The notes under the pieces are model-generated. The model saw only the letters and a program-made list of their open reading frames with translations, was not told the DNA's origin and ran no database searches. Below are positions 2,782-6,871 of a stretch of DNA of 33,385 bases, in pieces; position 1 is the first letter of the stretch, and each line of letters starts with the position of its first letter. The position numbers and the translations under genes were made by a program. The DNA comes from an uncultured Treponema sp. (lineage in GTDB: Bacteria; Spirochaetota; Spirochaetia; Treponematales; Treponemataceae), in contig CAMHLH010000004.1 in NCBI GenBank assembly GCA_946185925.1, positions 1 to 33,385 of the forward strand. The letters are read 5' to 3'.

Positions 2782-3324
2782 ATGATTTACGACTACACAT
2801 TCAAGGACAGAAAAGGAAACGAAGTTTCAATGCAGGACTACAAGGGAAAAGTTCTCTTGATAGTGAACACGGCGACTGGATGCGGCTTCACTCCGCAGTA
2901 CAAGGAACTTCAGGAAATATACTCCGAGCTTCACGAAAAGGGACTTGAGATTCTCGACTTCCCTTGCGACCAGTTCGGGCACCAGGCTCCGGGAAGCGAC
3001 GAGGAAATCCACTCGTTCTGCACTGGAAGATTCGGAATCGAATTCCCCCAGTTCTCGAAAATCGAGGTCAACGGCGAGAACGCACTCCCGCTCTTCAAGC
3101 ACCTCACTGCGAACACGAAATTCGAAGGCTTCGAGGACGCAAATCCGCTCTCGAAAATCCTCATGAAGATGCTCGGAATCGGAAAGAAGGATTTCTCGAC
3201 TTCAAGCGACATCAAGTGGAACTTCACCAAGTTCCTCATCGACAGGGAAGGCAACATCGTAAGAAGATTCGAGCCTACTGCCAACATGGACAAGGTGAAG
3301 AAAGAAATTTGTGATATTCTGTAA
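2782..3324 (+). CDS. gpx: Glutathione peroxidase family protein (Cys-type, probably thioredoxin-dependent)
   Basis: NTATGCGFTPQYKELQEIY, FPCDQFGHQAPGSDEEI, IKWNFTKFLIDREG motifs; AAGGAG SD. Confidence 0.93.
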   Translation: MIYDYTFKDRKGNEVSMQDYKGKVLLIVNTATGCGFTPQYKELQEIYSELHEKGLEILDFPCDQFGHQAPGSDEEIHSFCTGRFGIEFPQFSKIEVNGENALPLFKHLTANTKFEGFEDANPLSKILMKMLGIGKKDFSTSSDIKWNFTKFLIDREGNIVRRFEPTANMDKVKKEICDIL

Positions 3325-3327
3325 CGC

Positions 3328-3771
3328 ATGGAAAGTCAGAATTATGAACAGCTAAAATTGTCGAATCAACTTTGCTTCCCCCTCTATGTCTGCTCGAAGG
3401 AGATAGTCAGGCGGTACAAGCCTTTTTTGGACGAAGTTGATTTGACATACACACAGTACATAGCGATGATGGCGTTTTGGGAAAAGAGCGAGATGAACGT
3501 GAAGGACCTTGGAAAAAGGCTTTTCCTCGATTCGGGGACGCTCACTCCGGTCCTCAAGACGCTTGAGTCCAAGGGGTTCATCACAAGGGAAAGGTCGAAA
3601 GAGGACGAGCGCAACTTGATTGTCAGAATCACTGACGAGGGCATGGCCCTGCGCGAGAAGTGCGCTTCGATACCTGCGAAAGTGGGCTGCTGCGTCCGAA
3701 TGGAGCCGGAAGAGTTCAAGGCTCTCAAATCCATCCTCGACAAGTTCCTGATGAACTTCCAGGAAAAATGA
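3328..3771 (+). CDS. ohrR: MarR-family regulator of the OhrR (organic peroxide sensor) type
   Basis: Reactive-Cys context NQLCFPLYVCSKEI; LFLDSGTLTPVLKTLESKGFITRERSKEDERNLIVRITDEG winged helix; begins 4 nt after gpx ends. Confidence 0.85.
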   Translation: MESQNYEQLKLSNQLCFPLYVCSKEIVRRYKPFLDEVDLTYTQYIAMMAFWEKSEMNVKDLGKRLFLDSGTLTPVLKTLESKGFITRERSKEDERNLIVRITDEGMALREKCASIPAKVGCCVRMEPEEFKALKSILDKFLMNFQEK

Positions 3772-3794: not shown

Positions 3795-4670
3795 ATGGCA
3801 GGGACGAACGAACTTTACGATGTTGCGATTCTTGGAACAGGGCCTGCAGGCGTTTCTGCCGCGATAACCCTCAAGATTCGCAACAAGAGCATAATCCTGC
3901 TTGGAAGCCGCAATCTCACGGACAAGATGGGAAAAGCCCACGAGATTCAGAACTATCCGGGATTGCCGGCGGTGAAGGGCGACGAGCTCCAGGCTGCGTT
4001 CAAAAAGCATCTGGACTCTCTCGGCATCGAAATCACCGAGGATCAGGTGACCGCCTGCTACGCCCTGGGCGACAAGTTCAGCATGACGGCGAAGAGCGGC
4101 AAGACCTACTCGGCGAAAAGCGTCATAATCGCCACGGGCGTGAGTTTTGGCAAAGCCTACGAGGGCGAGGAGCAGTTCCTCGGCCGCGGAGTCAGCTACT
4201 GCGCCACCTGCGACGCTCCGCTCTACAAGGGCAAGAAGGTCGCCGTAATCGCCCAGACCGAAAAGGAAGAGGAAGAGGCGAAATTCCTTGCGGAAGTCTG
4301 CGAGAAAGTTTCCTACATTCCGCTCTACAAAAAAGAAGAATTCGAGTTTTCTGGAAACGGAAAAATCGAGATAATCAAGGACGTTCCGCTTTCGTTCCAG
4401 GGCAGAATGAAGGCCGAAAAGCTCGTGATGAAAAACGGGGAAGTCGAAGCGGACGGATTCTTCATCCTTCGCGATTCGATTTCGCCAAAACAGCTTGTTC
4501 CAGGGCTTGAGCTTGACGGAAACCACATCGCGGTGAACCGGAAGATGGAAACGAACATAAAAGGCTGCTTCGCGTGCGGAGACATAACGGGTCTTCCATA
4601 CCAGTATGTGAAGTCGGCCGGAGAAGGAAACGTGGCTGCGTTGAGCGCGGTTGCATATTTGTCAAAATAG
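3795..4670 (+). CDS. trxB: Thioredoxin reductase-like flavoprotein with degenerate pyridine-nucleotide-binding motifs (FFTR-like)
   Basis: FAD motif ILGTGPAGVSAAI, redox CATC, ETNIKGCFACGDITG; lacks GxGxxA (VAVIAQTEKEEEEA instead) and HRRxxxR; SD AAGGAG. Confidence 0.85.
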   Translation: MAGTNELYDVAILGTGPAGVSAAITLKIRNKSIILLGSRNLTDKMGKAHEIQNYPGLPAVKGDELQAAFKKHLDSLGIEITEDQVTACYALGDKFSMTAKSGKTYSAKSVIIATGVSFGKAYEGEEQFLGRGVSYCATCDAPLYKGKKVAVIAQTEKEEEEAKFLAEVCEKVSYIPLYKKEEFEFSGNGKIEIIKDVPLSFQGRMKAEKLVMKNGEVEADGFFILRDSISPKQLVPGLELDGNHIAVNRKMETNIKGCFACGDITGLPYQYVKSAGEGNVAALSAVAYLSK

Positions 4671-4680
4671 GAGGCAAAAG

Positions 4681-4995
4681 ATGGTAAAAGCAATTTCAGA
4701 GTCAGAGTTCGATGAAGCAGTGAAAGAGGGACTTTCGGTCGTCGATTTTTCAGCCACATGGTGCGGCCCTTGCCAGATGCTCAAGCCCGTTCTTGAGGAC
4801 GCTTCGGGCGAGTTCGACGGAAAGGTGAAGTTCTTCGCGGTCGACGTTGACGAGGCCGAGGACTTGAGCCGCAAGCTCGGAGTGATGGCTGTTCCTTCAA
4901 TCTTCGTGTTCAAGGACGGAGAGCAGGTCGCCATGACCACAGGCTTCCAGCCGAAAGACGCCCTTGTGTCCTGGGTGAACGGAGCGATTGCCTGA
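4681..4995 (+). CDS. trxA: Thioredoxin
   Basis: VVDFSATWCGPCQMLKPVLEDAS; VMAVPSIFVFKDG; SD AGGAGG precedes ATG at 4681. Confidence 0.95.
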   Translation: MVKAISESEFDEAVKEGLSVVDFSATWCGPCQMLKPVLEDASGEFDGKVKFFAVDVDEAEDLSRKLGVMAVPSIFVFKDGEQVAMTTGFQPKDALVSWVNGAIA

Positions 4996-5046: not shown

Positions 5047-5096
5047 AAGGCGTTCATTCGACACTCGAATTGTGTCCGAATGGACGCCTTTTTTTT
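5047..5096 (+). terminator. Rho-independent terminator after trxA / possible attenuator in asnB leader
   Basis: AAGGCGTTCATTCGACAC / GTGTCCGAATGGACGCCTT stem with one bulge, then T8. Confidence 0.85.
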
Positions 5097-5131
5097 ATTT
5101 AAATTGATTTTTTTTCCATCCGGGGGTTTTT

Positions 5132-6871
5132 ATGTGTGGATTTGTGGGCGCGTTTGATTTGAGCGTTGGCGGCCAGCCGATTGGCGATGCGTTGAAAGAG
5201 GAGCTTAGGAAGCAGATTTTGGAGCAGTCAAAGACGATTCGGCATAGGGGGCCGGACTGGTCGGGCGTGTACACGGGAGAGAACGCGATTTTGAGCCACG
5301 AGAGATTGGCGATTGTGGACCCGCTTTCAGGAAAGCAGCCGCTCGTTTCCGACGACGGAAAGATAATCCTCGCCGTGAACGGTGAAATCTACAACCACAA
5401 GGAAATCAGGGCGGAGTTCGAGGGAAAGTACAGTTTCAAGACGAAGAGCGACTGCGAGGTCATCATTCCTCTCTACAAGACTTACGGAACGGAATTCCTC
5501 GAAAAACTTTCCGGCATCTTCGCGTTCGCCCTCTACGATTCGGAGAAGGACGTGTATTTGATTGGACGAGACGAAATCGGCGTGATTCCGCTCTATCAGG
5601 GCTGGGACAAGCACGGCCGCTACTATGTCGCAAGCGAGTTGAAGGCGCTTGAAGGCTACTGCACTTCAATAGAAGAATTCCCGAATGGACACTATTTCTA
5701 CTCGAAAGACTCCAAGCCGACCCGCTGGTACAAGCGCGACTGGGAATCATTCTGCAACGTGAAGGACAATCCAAAAGCGACTGACGACAAGGGAGATGTC
5801 ATCAATCCTTCCGTCATAGAAAAAGTGAAGAACGGACTTGAGCAGGCTGTGAGGCAGCAGCTCATGTCGGACGTTCCATACGGCGTTCTCCTTTCTGGCG
5901 GACTGGACTCTTCGATAATTGCCGCGATAACGCAGAAATTCTCCAAGAAGAGAATCGAATCCGACGGAAAACAGGCCGCCTGGTGGCCGCAGCTCCACTC
6001 GTTCGCGGTGGGCCTCGAAGGCTCTCCAGACTTGCTTGCCGCGAAAAAAGCCGCCGACTACATCGGGACGATACACCACGAAGTCCACTTCACGATTCAG
6101 GAGGCGTTGGACGCGCTCCGCGATGTCATCTACCACATCGAGACCTACGATATCACGACAGTGCGCGCTTCCACTCCGATGTACCTTTTGGCGCGCGTCA
6201 TAAAGTCGATGGGCATAAAGATGGTGCTTTCGGGCGAGGGCAGCGACGAGCTTTTCGGCGGCTACCTCTATTTCCACAAGGCTCCGAATCCTCAGGAATT
6301 CCACGAAGAGCTTGTTCGGAAGATGTCCAAACTCCACCTCTACGACTGCCTCCGCGCGAACAAGTCGCTCATGGCGTGGGGAGTTGAAGGCCGCGTTCCA
6401 TTCCTGGACAAGGATTTCATCGACGTCGCCATGAGGCTGAATCCGTGCGACAAGATGAACATCCGCCTCTCCGACGGAAAACAGCGCATCGAAAAGTGGA
6501 TTCTCAGAAAGGCTTTCGAGGACATGCTCCCGGAGAGCATCGTCTGGCGGCAGAAAGAGCAGTTCTCCGACGGCGTTGGATACAACTGGATTGACACGCT
6601 CAAGAAGATGACCGAGGAGAAGGTTTCTGACGCGGAATTCGAGCGCAGGGAGAAGCGTTTCCCCATCAACACTCCGAAGACGAAAGAGGAATACTACTAC
6701 CGCGAAATCTACAGCGAGCTTTTCCCGTCCGACAGCGCGGCAAAGGTCGTCCCGCACGAAGCCGGCGTCGCCTGCTCCACCGCGAAAGCCCTCGAATGGG
6801 ACGAAGCCTGGAAGAACATGGACGAGCCGAGCGGCCGCGCCATCTCCGGCGTGCACGACAAAGCGTACTAG
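5132..6871 (+). CDS. asnB: Asparagine synthetase, glutamine-hydrolysing
   Basis: N-terminal Cys MCGFVGAFD; IRHRGPDWSG; NGEIYNHKEIR; LSGGLDSSIIAAI; GEGSDELFGGY. Confidence 0.95.
   Translation: MCGFVGAFDLSVGGQPIGDALKEELRKQILEQSKTIRHRGPDWSGVYTGENAILSHERLAIVDPLSGKQPLVSDDGKIILAVNGEIYNHKEIRAEFEGKYSFKTKSDCEVIIPLYKTYGTEFLEKLSGIFAFALYDSEKDVYLIGRDEIGVIPLYQGWDKHGRYYVASELKALEGYCTSIEEFPNGHYFYSKDSKPTRWYKRDWESFCNVKDNPKATDDKGDVINPSVIEKVKNGLEQAVRQQLMSDVPYGVLLSGGLDSSIIAAITQKFSKKRIESDGKQAAWWPQLHSFAVGLEGSPDLLAAKKAADYIGTIHHEVHFTIQEALDALRDVIYHIETYDITTVRASTPMYLLARVIKSMGIKMVLSGEGSDELFGGYLYFHKAPNPQEFHEELVRKMSKLHLYDCLRANKSLMAWGVEGRVPFLDKDFIDVAMRLNPCDKMNIRLSDGKQRIEKWILRKAFEDMLPESIVWRQKEQFSDGVGYNWIDTLKKMTEEKVSDAEFERREKRFPINTPKTKEEYYYREIYSELFPSDSAAKVVPHEAGVACSTAKALEWDEAWKNMDEPSGRAISGVHDKAY

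Follow-up and report, generated by a model that had tools for sequence, protein, structure and literature searches.

FFTRs are ferredoxin-linked thioredoxin reductases that do not depend on pyridine nucleotides, and they have been described for cyanobacteria and Clostridia. In Gloeobacter, the enzyme reduces thioredoxin (Trx) from ferredoxin, not from NADPH, and cyanobacteria with an FFTR as their sole thioredoxin reductase are already known (PMC12796991). Clostridial FFTRs are recognised by the loss of the same NAD(P)H motifs considered below, pairs of trxA and fftr genes are already known from Clostridia, and most FFTR-bearing Clostridia also have the NAD(P)H-using type of thioredoxin reductase (NTR) (PMC10880999). 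For example, in the trxA1-trxB1 locus of Clostridioides difficile, an FFTR adjoins its thioredoxin and the stress response is implicated (PMC10880999). A different kind of precedent is the gpx-ospR operon of Pseudomonas aeruginosa, where gpx is co-transcribed with an OhrR-family repressor and is inducible by organic peroxide (PMC4999210).

Here we describe FFTRs in a spirochaete genus, Treponema, in many species of which an FFTR is apparently the sole thioredoxin reductase and in several of which its gene shares an operon with those of a peroxidase and the cognate peroxide sensor. The window (the whole stretch of DNA that we analysed, 33,385 nucleotides) comes from an uncultured, gut-type Treponema sp. 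Its FFTR shares with the Clostridium acetobutylicum enzymes (6GNA-6GND) a clade, the CATC redox centre, the absence of NAD(P)H motifs, the absence of a C-terminal tail, an open conformation (modelled, in the window's case) and 52-53% identity (53% to 6GNA and 52% to 6GNC, versus 28-39% to NTRs). It differs from them in belonging to Spirochaetota, in sharing its operon with genes for a glutathione-peroxidase-family enzyme (GPx) and OhrR, and in being apparently the only reductase. As in C. difficile, the gene adjoins that of a thioredoxin; the C. difficile operon, however, is controlled by a sigma factor, is described with no mention of GPx or OhrR, and occurs alongside NTRs. The likeness to Gloeobacter and Prochlorococcus FFTRs is that of a cell's sole, ferredoxin-fed thioredoxin reductase (PMC12796991), whereas identity to them is about 25% (by structural alignment) and their Trp tail is missing from the window protein. 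The P. aeruginosa operon, for its part, is described as gpx-ospR only, without thioredoxin reductase or thioredoxin. A literature search on FFTRs in spirochaetes or Treponema found no earlier report within its coverage, which left out most subscription papers, and as far as we have checked, an FFTR has not been described before either as the sole reductase of a spirochaete or within an OhrR-gpx module.

The gene itself (3795-4670, + strand) is an intact ORF of 291 aa with an ATG start, a TAG stop and no internal stops, and its product has the low-molecular-weight thioredoxin reductase fold. The earlier note had reported that the FAD motif, CATC centre and C-terminal GD motif are intact, and all three can be located: an N-terminal FAD GxGxxG motif (GTGPAG, residues 14-19), the redox-active CATC disulfide in the second domain (4200-4211, + strand; residues 136-139; invariant across 33 aligned homologues) and CGDITG near the C-terminus (residues 261-266). 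The segment after CATC, within which NTRs have their GxGxxA and HRRxxxR motifs (4233-4349, + strand), reads KKVAVIAQTEKEEEEAKFLAEVCEKVSYIPLYKKEEFEF, just as the note had quoted it, and inspection of the aligned protein found neither motif; all 15 NTRs used for our tree have GxGxxA and HR[RK]xxxR. A PDB search returned the four C. acetobutylicum FFTR entries as top matches (E=1.9e-92, 310 bits) and a best NTR far behind (E=1.8e-35, 126 bits), E-values which rule out chance as the source of the FFTR likeness. The protein also misses the cut-off of the NCBIfam equivalog model for thioredoxin-disulfide reductase (TIGR01292; 193 bits against 343). Judged by its sequence, the gene encodes a clostridial-type FFTR. 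One practical consequence is that NADPH should not be assumed as the thioredoxin donor wherever a gene is annotated "trxB".

The FFTR gene is part of a head-to-tail operon, gpx-ohrR-fftr-trxA, with gaps of 3, 23 and 10 bases. Its other genes, all on the + strand, encode a Cys-type GPx (2782-3324; Pfam and residue inspection), an OhrR-type MarR repressor (3328-3771; Pfam and NCBIfam) and the thioredoxin TrxA with its WCGPC motif (4681-4995; Pfam and NCBIfam), and an intrinsic terminator (5047-5097, + strand; a long hairpin, core 5072-5087, then a T run) ends it. The spirochaete peroxide operon that had been proposed as the setting is confirmed, and Pfam and NCBIfam bear out GPx, OhrR/MarR and TrxA as the neighbours. 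In the GPx, Cys34 is the peroxidatic residue and Cys80 the likely resolving one, a further cysteine is Cys62, and Q68, W146 and N147 of the catalytic tetrad are conserved. A Trx-dependent GPx should pair its peroxidatic Cys with a resolving one located in the loop that follows FPCNQF, and each of the four treponemal GPx sequences that we read has both C34 and C80. A search with a single family model for GshF/gamma-glutamylcysteine ligase gave no match in seven FFTR genomes but did match three of its control genomes, which favours thioredoxin as the likely GPx donor.

The control region suggests regulation by the operon's own repressor. A sigma-70-like promoter (TTGACG-17-TATATT; 2698-2726, + strand) is flanked by two OhrR-box-like palindromes, TACAATTTAATTTTT (2674-2688) upstream of the -35 element and CACAATTAAATCGTA (2748-2762) between the -10 element and the gpx start codon, both resembling TACAATTNAATTGTA, the consensus shared by the OhrR proteins of B. 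subtilis and A. tumefaciens (PMC6034001). With up to three mismatches allowed, the window holds five box matches against 0.16 expected, four of which come from these two sites, each matched once per strand. The repressor has the MarR fold, an N-terminal reactive-type Cys16 in LCFPLY, further cysteines at positions 22, 112, 121 and 122, and a score of 179 bits against the NCBIfam OhrR model, for which the cut-off is 200.

To look for other thioredoxin reductases, we surveyed 130 genomes of the genus, i.e., the window's own genome and others at least 85% complete. FFTRs are carried by 34 of the 130, with scores of 358-534 bits (the next class starts at 195 bits), and eight genomes have no match to any flavin thioredoxin reductase. 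By hand count from our table, 16 of the 34 FFTR genomes have no TrxR-type match besides the FFTR, and 18 have another. The window's own genome belongs to the former kind, its only other TIGR01292 match being a 58-bit partial, but with 74.5% completeness over 355 contigs the absence of an NTR from that assembly is weak on its own. The window's subclade (support 100/99; G000, which is the window's own genome, and G001, G012, G031, G338, G397 and G418) gives a broader view: the assemblies of all seven members contain no other TrxR-type gene. A separate search of seven FFTR-only genomes found no iron-sulfur FTR (PF02943) that could act as a second reductase. One could still suppose that the FFTR is an accessory, peroxide-specific enzyme and that an NTR lies in the unassembled part of the genome, as the low completeness of that genome and the 18 FFTR genomes with a second TrxR-type gene would allow. 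However, the seven concordant subclade assemblies include some of high completeness (G397 98%, G001 97%, G418 95%, G012 93%), and incomplete assemblies weaken single cases but hardly all seven together. We therefore regard an accessory role as improbable; the window's lineage probably has no thioredoxin reductase but the FFTR.

We consider it very probable that this FFTR feeds a chain from ferredoxin through TrxA to GPx, that the chain is induced through OhrR, and that the enzyme is the subclade's only reductase, gained from Clostridia before the NTR was lost. In such a chain, a low-potential ferredoxin charged by PFOR would pass single electrons to the FAD, which is exposed, and a swing of the disulfide domain would then let the FAD reduce the CATC disulfide. 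The resulting dithiol would reduce TrxA, the product of the next gene, which in turn would reduce the Cys34-Cys80 disulfide of GPx, allowing GPx to remove organic hydroperoxides and H2O2. Oxidation of Cys16 by organic peroxide would make OhrR release the two promoter boxes, so that all four genes are induced together. Where the FFTR is alone, as in the subclade, the whole thioredoxin pool would be fed by ferredoxin, not NADPH.

The donor itself is inferred. The window's own genome encodes a clostridial-type 2[4Fe-4S] ferredoxin (G000:C270, MAYKIDAGTCVNCGTCEPDCPVGAIS...), which would probably be the donor, and the beginning of a PFOR gene (G000:C70; 817 bits over 489 positions) that runs to the end of its stretch. 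An FFTR-family member could instead draw on another low-potential carrier (e.g., flavodoxin) or on a different flavoprotein. Two other loci lend this some substance: a flavodoxin-like ORF lies upstream of the FFTR in G030 (L034 4831-5247), and in G127 an NrdI/flavodoxin-like ORF (L125 5865-6287), a possible partner or alternative donor, overlaps the FFTR end. No flavodoxin adjoins the FFTR in the window, though, a ferredoxin is present in its genome, and the characterised relatives use ferredoxin (PMC12796991, PMC10880999), so a different donor seems unlikely. Ferredoxin is an awkward fit with an oxidative-stress role in one respect, because oxygen inactivates PFOR and a ferredoxin-fed system would then lose its donor. 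The locus would offer a natural case of an anaerobe whose oxygen defence runs on a donor whose supply oxygen shuts down.

Phylogeny and structural modelling, the two computational checks that the earlier note had proposed, both place the protein with FFTRs and so bear out its reading of the motif pattern as FFTR-like. In a maximum-likelihood tree of 112 rows (FFTR and NTR references, a Treponema class without the HRR motif, and Lokiarchaeal sequences), it falls inside an 88-row clade with both C. acetobutylicum FFTRs (6GNA and 6GNC; support 100/98), separate from every NTR and from the other two groups; clustering with canonical NTRs, which had been named as the refuting outcome, was not seen. 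An AlphaFold2 model (mean pLDDT 90) was matched by Foldseek along its entire length to 6gnc (TM 0.87, rmsd 2.4 Å), less closely to the Gloeobacter FFTR (TM 0.77) and poorly to NTRs (TM about 0.56, rmsd 11-16 Å), the last being expected if the two domains of NTRs are rotated differently. The model, a prediction and not a structure, has the open (flavin-reducing) domain arrangement, unlike the NTR crystal forms. In cyanobacterial FFTRs, a C-terminal tail bears a Trp that stacks on the partner subunit's FAD (PMC12796991); the window protein ends ...VAALSAVAYLSK with no such tail, making it the clostridial type. It is scarcely credible that the protein is an NTR which goes on using NAD(P)H through a diverged pyridine-nucleotide site. 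The shared fold and CATC might suggest this, as might a separate Treponema class that lacks HRRxxxR while keeping GxGxxA, but the loss of both motifs, the position in the tree, the FFTR-like domain orientation and the missed NCBIfam cut-off speak against it. Motifs, tree and model likewise rule out a canonical or degenerate NTR.

The HRR-less Treponema proteins are a third TrxR-like class in the genus, with the motif CA[VI]CDxFFYRKK and a 100/100 clade of their own among those sampled in the tree (L009, L010, L012-L014, L016, L017, L022, L023 and L026). All lack HRRxxxR and most keep GxGxxA, with L009 and L010 lacking both. In the Lokiarchaeal TrxR-like proteins (L106, L107 and L112-L114), IGGSDSAAKEA replaces GxGxxA and YRGxxIRAEP replaces HRRxxxR.

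Treponemal FFTRs do not form one clade but are scattered among Clostridia. Forcing them into one costs 74 log-likelihood units, and the AU test (p=0.004) rejects a single ancestral treponemal FFTR. This polyphyly suggests that the gene was acquired several times from gut Clostridia, and horizontal gains of this kind with NTR loss in some lineages appear to be the simplest account. The window's FFTR was probably acquired from Clostridia, which may have been of the gut or rumen, and the NTR would have been lost afterwards. A second route may exist in the genomes without a flavin thioredoxin reductase, seven of the eight having a match to PF02943, the FTR catalytic chain (L196, L197 and L209-L213; genomes G006, G021, G386, G408, G385, G143 and G211), which had no match in the 34 other genus genomes searched. 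The two of these mini FTR-like proteins that we read have 65 aa with CPC...CMC...CHC, and this iron-sulfur protein looks like a second way, unrelated to the FFTR, in which thioredoxin reduction was switched to ferredoxin. On balance, we lean towards a general view in which ferredoxin has repeatedly taken the place of NADPH in the thioredoxin system of Treponema, through two or more unrelated enzymes (horizontally acquired FFTRs and the 65-residue FTR-like protein), with the entire thioredoxin system of the window's lineage and this peroxide defence made ferredoxin-dependent under an OhrR switch.

Linkage of the FFTR to GPx, OhrR or TrxA recurs across the family: among 35 FFTR loci, TrxA is nearby in 11, GPx in 10 and OhrR in 8. 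The full set of four is present in the window, G339 and G345; G401 has it too, with GPx on the opposite strand. With only 8 of 35 loci linked to OhrR and 10 of 35 to GPx, peroxide defence is not the FFTR's sole setting. Just six loci (those of the window, G012, G418, G391, G001 and G397) have an OhrR box with at most two mismatches immediately before the FFTR operon; such boxes are not a general trait of FFTR operons. The order in G012 is fftr-gpx-ohrR, and a similar promoter region with both boxes precedes fftr. Beyond the operon, the window continues with an asparagine synthase gene, AsnB (5132-6871), and a copy 82% identical to it lies 75 bases upstream of the FFTR in G387 (L232). Despite this similar neighbour, the FFTRs of G387 and the window lie on different branches of the tree.
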